Shown: positions 3,232-14,383 of the stretch, piece by piece | How the letters are laid out: each line of letters opens with the position of its first letter | Numbering within the stretch: position 1 is the first letter of the stretch | Origin: a virus | Reading direction: 5' to 3' (one strand) | Length of the DNA: 20,856 bases | Virus record (IMG/VR): IMGVR_UViG_3300043449_000920 | Location: 1-20,856 of that record | The notes under the pieces: model-generated | Database searches by the model: none | What the model was told of the DNA's origin: nothing | Seen by the model: the letters and a program-made list of their open reading frames with translations, nothing else | Made by a program: the position numbers and the translations under genes

Positions 3232-3414
3232 GTCGAGAAGGGCGAAGGCGATGGACTTGCTCAGGCCGAGGAGGTGCTTCACGAGCTTCTTTCCCTCGTC
3301 GGGATCGAGGCGCACGACACCATCGGTGTCCTTGCGAAGCGCGCCCTGAAGATGGTTGATCAGCTGCATCGCCTCGACGGCGATCTCGGCGGCTTCGGAC
3401 GGGTCGATCTTCAT
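3229..3414 (-). CDS. Small helical protein next to the endolysin, 61 aa
   Basis: The protein starts MKIDPSEAAEIAVEAMQLINHL and is predicted to be almost entirely helical, with an acidic N-terminal half and a more basic C-terminal helix (GKKLVKHLLGLSKSIAFALL). The ATG at 3414 overlaps the endolysin stop as ATGA and is preceded by an AAGGGGA Shine-Dalgarno, so I prefer it to the much longer upstream start, which would overlap the endolysin extensively. There is no convincing membrane helix. Coupling to the endolysin suggests a role in lysis or simply shared timing; function unknown. Confidence 0.65.
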   Translation of the reverse strand: MKIDPSEAAEIAVEAMQLINHLQGALRKDTDGVVRLDPDEGKKLVKHLLGLSKSIAFALLD

Positions 3415-3890
3415 CGCTTGATCCCCTTGACGAAGGGAGTGTATCGCCCCGCGCCGTCGTATACGAGACCTTGCATGCACTGCGCATCGGGGCGCCATGG
3501 AGCACCCAGCGACACATGCACCCACGTATACGGGCGATCGGGAGAGGACTTCTCGAGGATGCACTGTCCGAAGTGCAGCCCGCTGTCCTCGATGATCCAG
3601 CGGTGCAGCTCCTCCACCGTGACCGAGGGCGCCGATATGTCGGCTGCCTCCCCCTTGAGGTGCTGACTCGTCTTCGACCCGCCGACCTTCGCGTTGACAC
3701 TCTTGCCCCGGAAGGCACTCGTCACTTTCAACGGGCCGAACTTCGCGCGGATCGGCTCGAGGAGGGTCTTCGCCAGCGCAGTGAGCGCGTGCCGATACTG
3801 CTCGGCCTCGGCGGTGTTCGCCGCCTGGAGCGCCGTCTGTCCCGTGCGGGTCAGCTCAGCCCATGAGAAGTGAGGCGATACATCACTCAT
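3411..3890 (-). CDS. Endolysin, M15-type zinc peptidase, 159 aa
   Basis: The protein matches the phage M15 (VanY/M15_3-type) peptidase plan. An N-terminal HFSWAEL motif is followed by a helical region, then TSAFRGKSVNAKVGG, then the zinc motif SQHLKGEAADI (His77 and Asp84), and a second metal-side motif WVHVSL (His125). These enzymes cut peptide bonds in peptidoglycan (D-Ala-D-Ala or L-Ala-D-Glu linkages) at the end of infection. The length matches single-domain enzymes; no separate cell-wall-binding domain and no signal peptide are visible, so release should depend on a holin. The gene overlaps the preceding holin-like gene by 8 nt and the next small gene by 4 nt (ATGA). The exact bond specificity cannot be read from sequence. 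Confidence 0.9.
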   Translation of the reverse strand: MSDVSPHFSWAELTRTGQTALQAANTAEAEQYRHALTALAKTLLEPIRAKFGPLKVTSAFRGKSVNAKVGGSKTSQHLKGEAADISAPSVTVEELHRWIIEDSGLHFGQCILEKSSPDRPYTWVHVSLGAPWRPDAQCMQGLVYDGAGRYTPFVKGIKR

Positions 3891-5631: not shown

Positions 5632-7473
5632 CTACAGACTATCCCGCGCAGGATCCTCGAGGATCAGTAGCGAGAGGCCGATGGACCCCGAGCTGTCCCA
5701 CTGCACCTCACGCACGAGGGCCACCTGAGCGGACAAACCGATCTCGCTGTCCGTCACTACGACGACATCGCCGCGCGAAATCTCGTCGTAATGGGCACCT
5801 GACACGACATAATCCACCGTCCTGCGAGCGAGCGCGTACGCCTTCGCCTGCACGTTGAGGATGGCGTCGGCAGTTGCCACGTCCCAGATGATGGTCGAGT
5901 CGGTCGTCATCTCGCGGACGCCCGTGTCTCGCGTCGTACGATACCGCGCCTGGGACACTGCACACAGGTACGAGGCGCGGGTACTCGGGTCCGTGCTGTC
6001 GTACGTGGCGTCGAGCGCACGGTACTGCATCGAGACGTTCGTGCGTCGGTTGAAGCAGAAGTTGAGACGGAACTTGTTGGCGATCTTGCTCGAGTCCACC
6101 TTCACGCGGGAGGCGCGCTGCGTCGTCGGGTCCGCGTCGGCGTCGATCATCCAGCGGGCGTCCCGCGCCGTCGCGTCGTAGCGCCACACGACAGGGTAGA
6201 GTCCCTCCGGTCCCGTCGCCAGCGAGCAGGGCAGGATCGGCAGGAGGTTGGCCGAGAGCCACTCCCAGATGTTCACGCGCGCGTCGATCGCGCAGTCGAT
6301 GCGGAAGGTGTTCAGCATGGCCGCTGCGGTGGCGCACCGTCCGGCGTCTACCTGCATGCCCGTCTCGCGGAGCAGGTACGTCAGCACGTCGCCGGCGCCT
6401 CGGACGAGCTGCCCGTCGTCGCCCACCATGCCGCCGCCCTCATCGGAGCGCGTGCGGTCGTACCATCCGACGTAAAGCGGGACGTACAGGAGCCCGCCGT
6501 TCTCGTCGGAGTACGTGCGGTACGAGTCGTCGTCGAGCTCGATGTTCATGTAGTTGGAGCCGAGCGTGCAGACGTTCACGCCGTTCACCGCGACCGCCGC
6601 ACTACCCGCCGTGTCGCCACGCGCCACACCCGGGCAGACCGCCACCGTGCGGCCTCGGGCGTCGGTCCAGTGTTCTACGAGGAAGCCATTGTCTTGCGGG
6701 TCGCTCGCGCTGAAAGCGCCCTTGTAGAAATTCCACGTCTGGTTCTGGATCGACTCCGTGTAGAGGTACACGGTATCGGCCTGGACGCGGTGCCCTGCGA
6801 TGATGATCACCGGCCCCGGGTCCGCAGCGGTGCCGCTCGGGCCTCGATCCCGCGAGATGTGTACGGCGATCGATCCTTCCCACGCAGGATCAGAGAGGCC
6901 GGTCGTGCGCCCCGGGCGCCCGAAGATCACCGGGTAGACGAGGTTCGCATCCTCGGGACGCAGGGACGAATAGAAGTCGGGGAGCGTGCCGGACCACCCG
7001 GCGAAGTACGTGTTCTGGAGCGAGTCAGGCCACGTCGAGGACGACACCTCCCTTCCCGGCGCGGGGATCTGCACGTCACTCTGCCAGATCTCGTCCTGCA
7101 ACGAGAAGTCCACCGGCTCCCACTCGGCACCGTACTCGGGATCGGTCACTCGCCCGACGAGGCGCACGCGGCGCTGCTCATAGGTCTGTCCCTCGCGCCA
7201 GAGGGCAAGCGTTCCTGTGCATCCCTCGAGGCGATGCCCCGCCGCCACCAGCGCCGGCACGTCCACGCCGAGGACAGCCGAGACGCTCACGTTCGCCTGT
7301 GGGATCTGCGAGTCGAGGAGCTCGAGCGCCTCAGAGAAGGTCATCTCTTGGAGGGCGCCGGCGTAGTGGAGATCGCCCAGCACCGTCGAGGGCACCGTCA
7401 CATCATCCGTCGAGAGGCGCAGCGTCTGCCCCGCGAACTCGAGGTCAAGGAGCCAGTAGCACGCGCCGGTCAC
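5632..7473 (-). CDS. Tail hub/tip (baseplate hub-like) protein, 613 aa
   Basis: The protein opens with a distal-tail-like beta segment (CYWLLDLEFAGQTLRLSTDDV, LHYAGALQEMTFSEALELLDS). It continues with a long mixed region containing VYPVIFGRPG, DVLTYLLRETGM (about residue 360) and IDARVNIWEWLSANLLPILPC, and ends in a beta barrel-like part (ISRGDVVVVTDSEIGLSAQVALVREVQWD). The 'dvltylL...' helix followed by 'iw.wl..nllpllp' is typical of gp27/hub-like tail proteins that close the tail tube and carry the tip. Size and position, directly after the giant tail protein and before the fibre, agree. The start is GTG, in a GTGA overlap with the previous gene. No peptidoglycan hydrolase domain was seen. 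Confident as a tail-tip protein; the precise hub role is inferred. Confidence 0.7.
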   Translation of the reverse strand: MTGACYWLLDLEFAGQTLRLSTDDVTVPSTVLGDLHYAGALQEMTFSEALELLDSQIPQANVSVSAVLGVDVPALVAAGHRLEGCTGTLALWREGQTYEQRRVRLVGRVTDPEYGAEWEPVDFSLQDEIWQSDVQIPAPGREVSSSTWPDSLQNTYFAGWSGTLPDFYSSLRPEDANLVYPVIFGRPGRTTGLSDPAWEGSIAVHISRDRGPSGTAADPGPVIIIAGHRVQADTVYLYTESIQNQTWNFYKGAFSASDPQDNGFLVEHWTDARGRTVAVCPGVARGDTAGSAAVAVNGVNVCTLGSNYMNIELDDDSYRTYSDENGGLLYVPLYVGWYDRTRSDEGGGMVGDDGQLVRGAGDVLTYLLRETGMQVDAGRCATAAAMLNTFRIDCAIDARVNIWEWLSANLLPILPCSLATGPEGLYPVVWRYDATARDARWMIDADADPTTQRASRVKVDSSKIANKFRLNFCFNRRTNVSMQYRALDATYDSTDPSTRASYLCAVSQARYRTTRDTGVREMTTDSTIIWDVATADAILNVQAKAYALARRTVDYVVSGAHYDEISRGDVVVVTDSEIGLSAQVALVREVQWDSSGSIGLSLLILEDPARDSL

Positions 7474-10400
7474 AGCTCTTCCTCGATGCGGACGCGGGCG
7501 ACTCGGTAGACTTCGCCGCTCGGATCCTCAAACTCGGAGCCCTGCACCGTGTCCACCTGGAGCGTCTCGCTTCTGATCCGTCCATAGAGCTGGAGCGAAG
7601 GCGAGACGATCGTCCGCACCGTCGTGCCGCCCGTCATGGTGGCGATCTGCGGGAGGTACACGATCGGCGTCACCGCACCGTCGAGCTGCTCCATGAGCCC
7701 GAGCAGGGAGGGCGCCACGTCCGCAGGAGAGGCGATCCCGCCGCCGCCCGCGTGGAGGCGCACGTAGTCCACGTCATTGCGGGCGATGGCGGTCCCGTCC
7801 ACGCCCTCCTCCCACGCGATCTCGACAGCGCGGCGGGCCGGTCCCGTGCGCTGCACGCGTCGGGCGCCTCCACGCACCTCCGTGAGCTCGTAGGCCGGCG
7901 TCATGCTCTGCGCCCTCGAGGCGCTGTACTGCTGGCCGAAGACGTGGAGGTATCCCTGCACGACGCAGCCCACCTCGAAGTACCCCTCGTATGTACTCTG
8001 CACAGGGATCCGCAGCCTGTACGCCGAGTACTCCACCGTCGTCGTCTCGGCAGCGATCACTGTCACGCTCGGCATCCACATCTGTCCGTCCGTGCCACTC
8101 GTCGGGTCACCAGCTACCGCCGTGATTGTAGCGCGCACCTTCGTGCCGTCCCCCGAGAGCGCACCCGCCCACACACCCGGAGTCGAGACGGAGATCGGAC
8201 GCACACGCGTGCCGCCCGACATCACGAACCGTGCGCCGGCGAGCTCATTCGCAAGCAGCATGCGCGTGGCAATGGCCGAGCTGCCGAGCGGCGCGTCGGC
8301 CGTCACGATCTCGTCGTCTCGCAGGAAGCCGAGGCCCGTCTGTCCGGTCGCAGCGTCCACCGTGGCGATGGACTGCCAAACGCCCGCGCCGTCTCGGCCC
8401 TCCCAGTACGCCGTGCGGAAGTTGATCCCGGCGAGGTGGAGGCAGCGCACCGGCCCGAGGAACGGCGAGGTGACAGTCGGGTCGAGCTCCCACGCGATGA
8501 TCTGCTCGCTGGCGGTCGTCGTCGAGCGCCACGTCCGACGAGGCGAAGGCTCCTCCTCGACGTGGACCGCGCGCACTGGGAACCGGTAGTCGGTGGCGAT
8601 CGTCCACGTATCCGAGCGGTACGCCGGCCCATCCGTGCCGTACACCTCGAGGCCACCCACCGCATAGACGGGCGTCGGCGCGAGGTCGCGCGGGAGGAGG
8701 TCGGCAGGGTTCGCCGGCGGCGTGTAGATCTGCGTCTGTCCTGTGCCCGCGTACTGATCCGAGACGTACGCCATGCTGCGCCACGTCTGGTTCACCGCTA
8801 CGCCGGCGCCGACACCCGAGAGGTACTGCACGCGGTGCGTCGTGGAGGCGCCCTGGACGAGCGCGGCGGTCGTGCCTACCTGCACCCATGCGCGATCCTC
8901 GGCATCGCCTCGCGCCCCTGGTGCGTACCATGCCGTCGTGCGTCCGTTGTTTCCGGCAACGAGGCGGCAGCCCACCGAGATGCGGAGCCACACGCCCGTC
9001 GTCGCTGCGGTCGTGTTCACGGTCGCAATCGTGACGGCACCCGTCACGTCGAGCAGGGAGATTGTCGTCGGCGTGGCGACAATCGAGGCTTCAAAGGAGT
9101 CCGGTCCAGCCACGCCGGCGCGGACACGCACGGTCGCAGCGCCCGTCGTCACGGACACCCACGCCTCCGCGATCACGCCTTGAGCCATCGTACCAGCGGG
9201 CGATCCGGTCCACGTCGCGGAGTCACCGACGCCGCCCGTAACCGTCATGCCCGAGGAGGACAGCGCGACAGTCGGAGCGCCCGTCGAGGTGTACGCCCAG
9301 CTTACCGCATCCTGCGTCTGCGGGAGGTCGTACGGTAGCCACGTCCGTTCCCACGTCACCATCGTGTCATGGGTCACCGGACCCGTCAGGGACGGCAGCG
9401 GGACGCTCGCCCACCCGCCCGCTGTGAGGATGGCGATGGATGCCTCAGCAGTCGCTGCGATCGAGTTGTGCTGGTGGCTCACGACGAGGCGCCCACGCTG
9501 CCAGCACGTCGCAAGGTAGCGTGGGTGCGTGGCGCCGGTCCCCTCGCCGCGCCAGATCATGCCCTTCGTCGTCGGGTGCGAGCTCGAACCCGTGCCGCTC
9601 CACTGGCTATCGCCATAGTCGGCGGTGTAGCGAAGGGCGATGGCGTCGAGGCCCGCGAGGACAGTGTCCCGCCCGACAGCGTAGACACGCCCCACGTCGT
9701 CGGCAGCGAGCGCCATCTCGCCATCGTTCCAAGTCGTCGTGCCGAACGCCCAGCCCATCGGGTTGGACGCGTCCTGCATACGCACTTCGGTCGCGCTCAG
9801 GAACAGAGAGTACGCCGAGCCGATGCGTCGGCTCCACGGACGGTTGAGCAGCCCGTACGTCGCGTGGTTCTCGCGTCGCACGTAGGCGATGATGAACCCG
9901 TCCGCGATGGCGACGACATCCCCGAACCCGCCATGGTTGTCGATGTCGGCGCCCGAGTACTGATCGACCAGCTGGAAGGATGCGCCGAGGTCCGCGCTCG
10001 CGTACTGCGCGAGGCGCTGGCTGTACGCCGTCGAGGTGTCGATGATGTCCACGAGGAGGACGATCTGCCCGCCGTAGTAGGCGGCGCGCATGCGGCGCAC
10101 GCTCTTGGACACCGTCGAGATCGATGCCTCGAGGCAATACCGCTGGCCCGTCGTCCACGTCGCGCCGTCGTCGTCCGTGTAGGACATCCACACCTGTACC
10201 GTCGAGGAGGTGGAGTCCTCGACGCAGTAGAAGCAGAGGATGCGTCCGCTCGGCAACTGCACCAGCGCCGGCTTAGCACCCGTCGTGTACACGGCGCCGA
10301 TCGTGACGGCGTGGCTGAACACCAGCACGTCAGACCAGCTCGACGCCGACGAGGCGCGGCGCGAGGCGCGGACAGCCCCGCCCGTCTGGTCCTCGTACGC

Positions 10401-10791: not shown

Positions 10792-12675
10792 TCAGAGTGC
10801 CTCCCGCATGCCTACCGTGCGCGCTCCCCTTATCTCGACAGCCAACGGCGACCCCATTCTGAGGTTCTGTTTGATGAAGTCGTTGTAGACACGGTGCCTG
10901 TATTGCTGAACGATAACCATAGGTTGAGGTGTCTGCGGGATGCCGGCATTCGCTGCGCGCACCGCCTGCTCCCCACCGATCGCGTTCACTCCCGAGCGGG
11001 ACAGCACGCCCTCCCCGCGCACGAGGCGCGCGTTCACCTCATCAGGGGGAGCGCCGACGATACCGCCCGCGTGGAAGGCCGGCTGCTGTGCCGCGATGGT
11101 CGCCACCTGAGCCGCACCCGCAGCACCCGCCACCGCCGCAGCGATCGGGTTTGGAAGGCTCGCCGTGACAGCGGCGGCGGTGTTGATGATGGCCTCCGCG
11201 AGCTTCGCCGCCTTCGCAACCTCAAACGCCTGGATCGCAGCGTTGCGCTGCGCGGCTACGCGCTCCTGTAGTGCCGCCTTCTCGCTGGCGGTGAGCATCT
11301 CGCTTTGGTCCGCGAGTTGCTGCTGGAGGCGCCCGAGAGAGTCGGCGCTCGAGGAGGCGAGCGCGTCGAGTCCCTGCCCGACCGAGCCGATACCCTGCGC
11401 GATGAGCTGCGCGTTCTCAAGCGCCGCAGCGGCTTCAGCCTCGCGGGCCTCCGTCGCCTTCGCGGCTTCGTCCTGCCGCGCCTTCTCGCGCACGGCGGCG
11501 ATCTGCTCGGCTACGTCCTGCTCGATCTGAACCCGCGCTTCGGCGGCGGCGGTCTGCGCGGCCTCTGCTTCGGCGTTGGTGAGCGCGAGGTACTCTGTGC
11601 GCTGCGCGAGCTCATCGAGCTGTCGCAGTCGCTGCTGCCCCGCTGCGAGGATGCGCTCCTCCTCGGACACCGACGATCGCTGGTCTGCCGTCAGGGAGCG
11701 CATGGCCTCGGCGTAGTCGATCACCGTGCGCGTGTACGTCGCCTGTGCCCGCTCCTTCTCGCGCTCGGCCTGCTCGGCAGCACGGGCAGCGTCCGCAGCC
11801 GCACGATCGGCGTCGGCCTTCGCAGAAGCCGCAGCAGCGGCGCGCTCGTCGGCGCGCTGTCCTGCGTAGCGTGCGCGGATCAGTCCCTCAGCCGTCGAGA
11901 TCTGATCGGCCTGCTTCGCCTGAAGCGCCTCCACCTGCGCCGACAGATCGCGGTACGTCTGCGCCTCGGCAGTGTTCAGCCCCTTGCCCCGGTTCGCGGC
12001 AGCGGCCGAGGCGCGCTGCGTCTCGAGGTACTGGAGCTGCTCGCGGTACGCCGCCTCGATCGCCTCGGTACGGTTGCGGACGGCGATCTCCTCCTCCGTA
12101 GTCGCCCCGGTCGCCAGCGCCTCCTCGTCTGCGAGATCGCGCGTCAGGCGCGTAATGTCTCGCGTGCGGTCGAGCGTAGCGGAGGCGAGCTTCGCCGCCT
12201 CCTCATTCTTCTGATTGACCGCCTCGAGCTCCGAGGCGAGGTACTGATACGCAGCAGCGCCCACAGCGACAGCCGCAGCGACAGGCCCGAGGATGGCGAG
12301 AAGGCGCGTGCCACCCAGCGCCGCGATCTCGAACCCGTCCGCGATGTCCGCAGCGCCACGCGCTACGCCACCAAGCCCGGGCACAACCATGTCGAGGACG
12401 CCTGCCACCTTGCCGGCGTTCGCGCCGAACTTGCCGATCTTGTCGCCTACGTCGCCGGCGGCGTCTGCCGCCTTCTTCGACGCGGCGGCAGTCTGCTCCA
12501 TCGCGCGCTTCGTTGCGGCGGCGCTGTCCTTCGACGCCTTCTCTGCTGCCTTGATGGACGCCTGCAAATCCTTGACGATCAACTTCGCCGTGTCGGCAGT
12601 CATGCCCTGCACGGATGCGAGCTGCGCCTCGAGGTTCGCCAGCGAGGCCGATACGGTCAGGTTGATGTCAGCCAC
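10792..12675 (-). CDS. Tape measure protein, 627 aa
   Basis: The N-terminal ~90 residues are an Ala/Lys/Asp-rich helix (IKAAEKASKDSAAATKRAMEQ). A glycine/alanine hydrophobic region at about 95-147 (LGGVARGAADIADGF, LAILGPVAAAVAVGAAAY) follows, then a very long charged coiled coil to about residue 480. A second hydrophobic patch (PIAAAVAGAAGAAQVATIAAQ) precedes the classic tape-measure C-terminal signature FHAGGIVGAPPDEVNARLVRG with 'GEGVLSRSGV'. Tape measures set tail length at roughly 0.15 nm per residue, which would give about 90-95 nm, a modest siphovirus tail. The start is GTG, overlapping the preceding gene by 8 nt, with a GGGAGG Shine-Dalgarno. The gene follows the chaperone pair, as expected, with one gp10-like gene between. 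No lysozyme domain is present. Confidence 0.9.
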   Translation of the reverse strand: MADINLTVSASLANLEAQLASVQGMTADTAKLIVKDLQASIKAAEKASKDSAAATKRAMEQTAAASKKAADAAGDVGDKIGKFGANAGKVAGVLDMVVPGLGGVARGAADIADGFEIAALGGTRLLAILGPVAAAVAVGAAAYQYLASELEAVNQKNEEAAKLASATLDRTRDITRLTRDLADEEALATGATTEEEIAVRNRTEAIEAAYREQLQYLETQRASAAAANRGKGLNTAEAQTYRDLSAQVEALQAKQADQISTAEGLIRARYAGQRADERAAAAASAKADADRAAADAARAAEQAEREKERAQATYTRTVIDYAEAMRSLTADQRSSVSEEERILAAGQQRLRQLDELAQRTEYLALTNAEAEAAQTAAAEARVQIEQDVAEQIAAVREKARQDEAAKATEAREAEAAAALENAQLIAQGIGSVGQGLDALASSSADSLGRLQQQLADQSEMLTASEKAALQERVAAQRNAAIQAFEVAKAAKLAEAIINTAAAVTASLPNPIAAAVAGAAGAAQVATIAAQQPAFHAGGIVGAPPDEVNARLVRGEGVLSRSGVNAIGGEQAVRAANAGIPQTPQPMVIVQQYRHRVYNDFIKQNLRMGSPLAVEIRGARTVGMREAL

Positions 12676-13249
12676 TGCGGCCTCCCTTTAGCGCCGCCTT
12701 CGTGGCGCGCTGGATGCTCCGAATACTATCGCGCGCGCGCTTCTTCCCGGGCTTGATCACGTTTTCCTGCCACATGCTCCTACCGTCGCTCGCCTTCGGG
12801 TTGGGGCGCACAGCGCGCACGCCCACCGGATCGCCGTTCTCGTCGAGCTTGGCGAACCGGTAGCCCGGAGGCATCGCCTTGTTCTTGCGGTAGTAGTCGC
12901 GCACCTCGAAGTACTCGCTCTGCTGGGTGAGCTTCCGAGAGGAGATCAGCGACAGAGGCCCGGGGCGCTTGATCATGTAGGTGGCCTTCTCGGTCGCGTA
13001 CACGACGCCCGTCACCTTGTCGGTCGTGAGGCGCATCTCCGTTTCGATGCTGTCCTGCGAGTCGCCCGATCGCTTGTCCACCTGGTCATACCAGTCCTGG
13101 CGCGCATCCTCGGCCACCTCGTCTACGAGCGCCTCGATGCCCGTCGCGAGCCCCTTCGACGCAGCGTTGAACGCGGCGCGGAGGCTCTGCTCCAGCGTGC
13201 CGTCTACGGCTACGGTCACCTTTCCCGATCCGTACACGACACGCGCCAT
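12668..13249 (-). CDS. HK97 gp10-like protein (neck/tail completion candidate), 193 aa
   Basis: The protein begins MARVVYGSGKVTVAVDGTLEQ. A helix with VDEVAEDARQDWYDQV is followed by a DKRSGDSQDSIETEM stretch and a strand pair (GVVYATEKATYMIKRPG), and it ends in a very basic tail (PGKKRARDSIRSIQRATKAALKGG). The order 'helix, then sGdsqdSI, then beta pair with tyrosine' is the layout of HK97 gp10-type proteins, which join heads and tails. Here it sits between the tail assembly chaperone and tape measure rather than before the tail terminator, so the assignment is tentative. Its ATG follows directly on the -1 frame stop of the chaperone extension, with a GGAGG site inside that extension. Confidence 0.55.
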   Translation of the reverse strand: MARVVYGSGKVTVAVDGTLEQSLRAAFNAASKGLATGIEALVDEVAEDARQDWYDQVDKRSGDSQDSIETEMRLTTDKVTGVVYATEKATYMIKRPGPLSLISSRKLTQQSEYFEVRDYYRKNKAMPPGYRFAKLDENGDPVGVRAVRPNPKASDGRSMWQENVIKPGKKRARDSIRSIQRATKAALKGGRSG

Positions 13250-13809
13250 TCAGCCTCCGAGCCCCCAGAACGAGGCGCCCTCTGCGGTCACCGTATCACC
13301 CGGACGTGGCTGGAGCGGACCTCGTGCTGCGCGCTTCGGCGGCGGCGTGTGCTTCGCCCGCCACCATCCGAGGACGCGCTCCTGCTGGTCCACTGTCCAC
13401 CCATAGAACGCGTCTGGTTCGCCGCAGTACGTGAGCCCGATCTCGAGGGCTACGGCGTCGAGCCCTCCGTCCGGCCCTCGGTAAAATCCGCGTGGGTCTG
13501 CACCGCCTCCTCGCGCGGGTAGGAGTCCACGATCAACGTGATCGCCTTGCTCGCGGCCTCGGCCACCTCGGACTCAGAGACGCCGGCGGCGTGGAGCTCG
13601 TCCCGCACCGCAGCGCCGTAGGCCATGCCGTCCCAACGGCATCCCGCCAGTGTGGTCTTCAACGCGGGGCGCCCCTGCCAGCAGACGCCGAGCGCGGCGC
13701 CCATGCCGATCCATCCATCCTGTGCCAGCGCCAACAGCGCCTTGGTACGCGCGGCGTGCGAGGCAGGTGCTGCGAGCGTGACGGTACGGCCCTTGATCGT
13801 GACTTCCAT
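13250..13809 (-). CDS. Tail assembly chaperone G-T-type fusion made by -1 frameshift (predicted, about 186 aa)
   Basis: Past the stop of the short chaperone ORF, the -1 frame stays open from before that stop to a TGA at 13250-13252, which abuts the next ATG. It encodes a credible protein segment (GLDAVALEIGLTYCGEPDAF, then YGWTVDQQERVLGWWRAKH, then FWGLGG) that has no good start codon of its own. Long-tailed phages typically make a G and a G-T product by programmed frameshift in exactly this place, just before the tape measure, so this is the expected T part. The best slip candidate is TTTT-ACC at 13486-13480 on the minus strand, codons 109-110. It allows only the P-site tRNA to re-pair cleanly, so the exact site is uncertain. 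With slippage there, the fusion has 109 + 77 residues. Confidence 0.65.
13450..13809 (-). CDS. Tail assembly chaperone, short form (gpG-like), 119 aa
   Basis: The protein starts MEVTIKGRTVTLAAPASH with a beta hairpin, then helices (ARTKALLALAQDGW, GAALGVCWQG, GAAVRDELHAAGVSESEVAEAASKAITLIVDS) and a short polar tail. Small size, helical make-up and location between tail tube and tape measure fit the G-type chaperone that coats the tape measure before tube polymerisation. I chose the ATG at 13809 because an AAGGAG site lies just upstream; the longer upstream reading would run through the hairpin at 13840-13871. Its C-terminal codons overlap a longer -1 frame extension described separately. Confidence 0.75.
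   Translation of the reverse strand: MEVTIKGRTVTLAAPASHAARTKALLALAQDGWIGMGAALGVCWQGRPALKTTLAGCRWDGMAYGAAVRDELHAAGVSESEVAEAASKAITLIVDSYPREEAVQTHADFTEGRTEGSTP
13480..13486 (-). other. Candidate -1 frameshift site in the chaperone gene
   Basis: The minus strand reads TTTTACC, with codons TTT (109) and ACC (110) in the short-form frame. A single-base backward slip on TTT would place ribosomes in the open -1 frame of the T-type extension. It is not a perfect X-XXY-YYZ heptamer, and other slip points before the stop at 13450 are possible. Confidence 0.35.
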
Positions 13810-13888: not shown

Positions 13889-14383
13889 TCAGGTCGCCGT
13901 GATCGACCCCAGCACCTCGAAGGAGATGCTGAACGAGTCCGGGTCTCCCTCGGACAGGTCGATCGAAAGACGACAGTCGTTGAGGACGAGAACATGATCG
14001 GAGGGGTCCCCAAAATTCGTGCCTTCCGCCGTAAAAGTGACGTTCAACGTATACAAATCTGCGGTCGCGCCGAGCGTAGACACCGCAGCCGAGAACGATC
14101 CCGTGCGGTTGACGGCATCCCACAGCGTGTTGTTGGTGGCGTCCGCGAGGTCCGTGAACTGCGCCGTGAAGGAGCCGGTGGGGAAGGAGCGGTTCGTCTT
14201 CCGCACCGTGCCCATCTCGCCGCGGTCGAGGTACTTCGTGTACTCGTAGTTGCCCTGGTTGGCTCCCGTGATCGAGAAGTCACCAGACTCGTACTGCACG
14301 GTCAGAGTGATCGGAGACCCGCCGCCAGAGGCGAGGGTAATCAGGCCGTCACGAAAATTCTTGGGCACGGACGAGATGGGCAT
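13889..14383 (-). CDS. Major tail tube protein, 164 aa
   Basis: The protein begins MPISSVPKNFRDGLITLASGG. It is beta-rich, with segments typical of siphovirus tail tube subunits: SPITLTVQYESGDFSITG, the central charged stretch YLDRGEMGTVRKTNRSFPTGSF, then TNNTLWDAVNR and a C-terminal strand pair (LSIDLSEGDPDSFSISFEVLG). Tail tube subunits of this family are about 150-200 residues and are followed by the tail assembly chaperones, as here. The start uses a TGAGGTAGACC initiation region identical to that of the gene at 2846-3220. A long hairpin follows the stop codon. It should form the stacked hexameric tube through which DNA leaves the head. Confidence 0.85.
   Translation of the reverse strand: MPISSVPKNFRDGLITLASGGGSPITLTVQYESGDFSITGANQGNYEYTKYLDRGEMGTVRKTNRSFPTGSFTAQFTDLADATNNTLWDAVNRTGSFSAAVSTLGATADLYTLNVTFTAEGTNFGDPSDHVLVLNDCRLSIDLSEGDPDSFSISFEVLGSITAT

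Follow-up and report, generated by a model that had tools for sequence, protein, structure and literature searches.

In the window, as we call the whole stretch analysed (20,856 bases of an uncultured virus record), a short minus-strand gene is overlapped at its 3' end by a second open frame, and the question this locus raises is whether the second frame is read as a -1 extension of the first, in the manner of the G and G-T tail assembly chaperones of long-tailed phages. The features on which the answer depends are these, in the order in which they would be transcribed:

13889 to 14383, minus strand: tail-tube-like protein of 164 aa, the upstream neighbour, named from Foldseek matches in BFVD and from synteny.
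13450 to 13809, minus strand: G, putative short tail assembly chaperone of 119 aa, with its ATG at 13809 and its TAG at 13452-13450.
13483 to 13489, minus strand: predicted slip heptamer G_GAT_TTT, read GAT TTT in the 0 frame and GGA TTT in the -1 frame.
13250 to 13486, minus strand: T, the -1-frame extension, with a protein-like dN/dS in this frame only.
13250 to 13809, minus strand: predicted G-T fusion of 186 aa, joining 13809-13483 to 13483-13250.
12668 to 13249, minus strand: conserved protein of 193 aa, the downstream neighbour of T.
10792 to 12675, minus strand: likely tape measure protein of 627 aa, from its position and a C-terminal motif.

A sequence-only reading of the window had claimed that the -1 frame continues past the stop codon of G to a TGA abutting the next ATG, and that it lacks a usable start of its own. 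The coordinates bear out both points. No stop interrupts the -1 frame of G, on the minus strand, between 13573 and the TGA at 13252-13250, and the next gene begins immediately after that TGA, at ATG 13249. The earliest ATG, GTG or TTG of the -1 frame is GTG 13393, which lies within the conserved core and so comes too late to serve the conserved first residues of T. Counted from the Phe codon, T adds 77 aa, from TAC 13483-13481 to GGC 13255-13253. With a shift at 13489-13483, base 13483 would be read twice, and the junction peptide predicted for the fusion is EEAVQTHADFYR, its counterpart in G being EEAVQTHADFTEGR.

Relatives were gathered by protein-guided scans of viral contigs, which yielded 79 distinct loci at first and, once more distant ones were added, 82 distinct sequences, that is, the window and 81 relatives from uncultured viruses; the alignment of G (A5) has 37 members and that of T (A6) has 33. 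The same layout of G, an overlap of 8-15 codons, and T in the -1 frame is present in all 82. The idea that G and T were once a single gene, which an indel from sequencing or assembly has broken in two, has a negligible probability and is refuted by this recurrence, there being no one-frame fusion among the 82 distinct sequences. T evolves as a protein solely in the -1 frame. Between the window and four near relatives, the T frame has an NG86 dN/dS of 0.02-0.12 and the two other frames have a dN above dS; the pooled pN/pS of the ungapped core is 0.24 for the T frame and 2.0-2.1 for the others. Conservation of the -1 segment among relatives, a check that the sequence-only reading had proposed, was therefore found in 82 of 82 sequences, with selection acting at the level of the protein.

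Within the overlap, the site of the predicted shift can be pinned at G_GAT_TTT (13489-13483). An in-phase T_TTT, which in the window heptamer occupies 13486-13483, stands at the junction in all 82 distinct sequences and elsewhere in G is found at only 2 of 7,298 codons. This invariance stands out in genomes that otherwise avoid codons of this sort: T-ending codons make up 8% of G, and TTT is scarce, with 16 TTT to 99 TTC in the bodies of G and 2 to 185 in T. Five relatives have a T-frame TGA immediately before the heptamer (TGA GGG TTT, giving stop-GF), and the 0-frame stop lies 24-45 nt downstream of the heptamer in the 79-locus set, so that in those five the shift is confined to the heptamer or to the bases that separate it from the 0-frame stop. 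Apart from T_TTT, no slippery pattern of one codon in the overlap is common to more than 45% of the relatives. The constancy of T_TTT could in part reflect dual coding, as it specifies Phe in G and Phe-Tyr or Phe-Phe in T, but ahead of the shift there is no need for the T frame to be translated. Slippage had earlier been placed at TTTTACC, which does lie at 13486-13480 but is three bases out of phase; when the codons are phased on G they read GCG GAT TTT ACC, and the slipping pair would be GAT TTT, not TTT ACC.

The position of the G stop shows some variation of its own, since it falls 8 codons past the slip TTT rather than 11 in 18 of the 82 sequences (L041, L044-L048, L065, L077 and others). 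This stop is TAG in 81 of 82, and in the T frame the TAG falls within a conserved AVA or LDA stretch. An in-phase T_TTT also occurs at five further places in the genes of the window, all on the minus strand (14356, 14035, 14014, 20496 and 19513), three of them in the tail-tube-like gene, where one reads C_ACT_TTT_ACG, much like the G_ACT_TTT_ACC of some relatives. The tetramer alone thus need not suffice for a shift, and these five sites could be used as natural negative controls.

It could be argued that T is instead a protein in its own right, made from a start codon of its own or by re-initiation once G has been translated, and 29 of the 79 relatives do carry some T-frame ATG, GTG or TTG before the core. 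In the other 50, the window among them, there is none ahead of the core, and T-frame conservation begins at the slip codon, next to which the T-frame stop of the five relatives mentioned above is placed. A separate T would also leave the invariant T_TTT unexplained, and we consider it very unlikely. A change of frame by transcriptional slippage on the run of T, with no part played by the ribosome, would account for a conserved homopolymer at this site; the run is merely four T long (five in a minority), however, whereas the runs linked to transcriptional slippage are longer, An of over 7 and Tn of over 8 (PMC3711429), making this explanation highly improbable.

While TTTT is fixed, the rest of the heptamer is not. 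The codon preceding TTT may be GAT, GGT, ACT, AGT, GTT, AAT or GCT (Asp in 39, Gly in 33, Thr in 6 and four others in one each, n = 82), ending in T without exception, and the two commonest heptamers are G_GAT_TTT (39/82) and G_GGT_TTT (33/82). At least seven changes of the heptamer are seen on a tree built from 77 G-T proteins, and TTTT is lost in none of them. Canonical heptamers (G_GGT_TTT, A_AAT_TTT) are found in 34 of the 82 sequences and near-canonical ones (G_GAT_TTT, G_GTT_TTT) in 40, and in the other eight (G_ACT_TTT, C_AGT_TTT, T_GCT_TTT) the first codon cannot re-pair, although T is still conserved. The site in the window departs from X_XXY_YYZ in that GAT mismatches on moving to GGA, and by its sequence it is best called near-canonical. 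The earlier suggestion that the mechanism may be non-standard therefore retains some force for the eight sequences with a non-pairing first codon, but not for the window, which is near-canonical, or for the 34 canonical sites.

Two accounts of the slip can be set against each other here. Slippage of two tRNAs over the whole heptamer may be the rule, with the misfit sites as weak exceptions, and we give this about an even chance: most of the heptamers are canonical or near-canonical by the counts above, and G_GAU_UUU is established as a working site of slippage in pea enation mosaic virus, a plant umbravirus (PMC5009743). Against it, the first tRNA would be unable to re-pair in eight of the 82 sequences, in which T is conserved nonetheless, so that slippage at the Phe codon is the only universal element. 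Tentatively, the -1 shift of this family might depend solely on re-pairing of tRNA-Phe at T_TTT, the preceding codon being free to be a non-pairing one (ACT, AGT, GCT) and no stimulator being needed, and on that reading, which we hold to be possible but less likely than not, a one-tRNA slip site would have been kept across a large sequence divergence.

The search for stimulators bears on this point. No downstream RNA structure common to 51 sequences was found with pseudoknot-free models (RNAalifold, -3.5 kcal/mol), the mean z for downstream folding being -0.74 and that of a control region deeper in T lower still; the window could form a local downstream hairpin (z -1.3), which is not common to the relatives. 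Upstream, no Shine-Dalgarno-like element at a fixed distance was found among the relatives. Motifs of this kind (GAGG or AGGAGG) are frequent there with a spacing of 4-20 nt, and we do not claim them as a stimulator because the spacing is variable and a conserved Arg-Glu-Glu stretch probably explains them. The identical heptamer stands in the same phase in pea enation mosaic virus and RNA viruses related to it (PMC5009743), but they are eukaryotic viruses with downstream RNA elements, whereas here the site lies in a phage gene for which no conserved structure was found. Among phages, the 'twoonefour' slip motif of PRFect is a reported class in annotated (SEA-PHAGES chaperone) frameshifts (PMC10885494), and GGATTTT would fit it as read from its name, with two, one and four repeated bases.

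The identity of G was approached through sequence and through fold. A profile search against known G-T chaperones, which the sequence-only reading had also suggested, returned nothing: scans of all members against Pfam and PHROGs gave no match above the family threshold, and a tblastn search of 50,697 phage records revealed no convincing relative in annotated phages. Nothing convincing for G or T was seen in NCBIfam, PDB sequences or GTDB genomes either, and scattered weak matches (MDH, CytoC_RC, IcmE and similar) were set aside as chance. As tail assembly chaperones share little sequence, the missing family match has no bearing on whether this is a pair of the G/G-T kind. The link to known chaperones is made only by comparison of predicted folds and by synteny. 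An AlphaFold2 model of G (pLDDT 78) consists of a beta hairpin and five helices, and this predicted fold resembles that of YqbN (3klu), a solved structure described as a tail assembly chaperone (PMC9603447). The alignment has a VIA-align Z of 6.6 over 82 residues at 3.4 Å and 15% identity, the next solved structure having a Z of 4.1, and a Z of 6.6 is within the range of chance arrangements. Foldseek matches of G in BFVD include named tail assembly chaperones and the GT of N15, none of them significant alone, and HK97 gp13 (2ob9) is absent from the list of fold matches, which says nothing against a likeness.

The neighbouring genes follow a conserved order of tube-like gene, G, T, 193-aa gene and presumed tape measure. 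A homologue of the tube-like gene lies directly upstream of G in all 80 loci with room for it. Foldseek matches of its product in BFVD include tail tube and TP901-1-type major tail proteins, with a probability of about 1, and they were taken as support only, the model being of low confidence (pLDDT 51). Homologues of the 193-aa protein follow T in 61 of 67 loci with room, and homologues of the 627-aa protein are present in 61 of 67 as well; neither of these two proteins nor the 164-aa tube-like protein had a match in sequence family libraries. The 627-aa protein ends in a GGIVGAPPDEV...GEGVLS stretch that we take to be typical of tape measures, and from this motif and its position it is likely to be the tape measure protein. 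The place of the 193-aa gene, between T and the presumed tape measure, is unusual. Elsewhere in the window, long plus-strand open reading frames (7299-9338 and others) lie opposite minus-strand genes and are probably a by-product of high GC content, and by eye the minus-strand gene at 3411-3890 is a candidate peptidase M15-type lysis enzyme.

That unusual placement, together with the want of a sequence-family match, is what could be said for a frameshifted pair that is not a tail assembly chaperone. We think such a pair very unlikely given the position right after a tube-like gene in every one of the 80 loci, the resemblance of the G fold to YqbN and the two-form design itself.

Frame-specific purifying selection, gene order, the fold of G and the fixed slip site together give strong support to the G-T fusion by -1 frameshifting that had been proposed for the window. 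We put at roughly 0.9 the probability that the locus encodes a pair of tail assembly chaperones, G and G-T, the longer of which arises by programmed -1 ribosomal frameshifting, with the slippage itself predicted; that slippage occurs, how efficient it is and what G and T do are matters that we infer. Most ribosomes would finish G and terminate at the TAG at 13452-13450. A minority would slip back by one base with tRNA-Phe on the TTT of G_GAT_TTT (13489-13483), the tRNA re-pairing with the overlapping TTT, and would continue in the -1 frame through TAC CGA to the TGA at 13252-13250, producing the 186-aa G-T fusion. By analogy with lambda, G may coat the tape measure protein and T may recruit the tail tube subunit, and both G and G-T would be expected to leave the finished tail.

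With gpG and gpGT of lambda the locus shares a pair of overlapping frames that follow the tail tube gene and a -1 shift, predicted here, towards the 3' end of G with no obvious stimulatory signal. The slip sequence of lambda is GGGAAAG. Slippage here would take place on T_TTT, a Phe codon, whereas lambda slips on a lysine codon, tRNA-Lys being shown in a figure legend on the lambda shift (PMC5009743). The present locus also differs from lambda and its counterparts in having no detectable sequence similarity to known chaperones, and from lambda in the 193-aa gene that intervenes between T and the presumed tape measure. A review (PMC5009743) notes that conservation of these shifts is wide among long-tailed phages even though sequence similarity is low, and that some of them seem to need no stimulator.

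Very probably, therefore, the window carries a real and selected G/G-T chaperone pair, its frameshift predicted, whose kind is known but whose phage family is uncatalogued. This adds to the known G/G-T chaperones a family absent from Pfam, PHROGs and the phage records searched here, and those who annotate such phage contigs should join the two frames. The part that may interest recoding specialists is the predicted slip on one codon, conserved while the codon next to it varies. The family offers a natural series of slip sites, in which G_GAT, G_GGT, G_GTT, A_AAT, G_ACT, C_AGT and T_GCT each precede TTT in otherwise similar genes, and this series allows the weight of the first tRNA in bacterial -1 frameshifting to be asked about directly.
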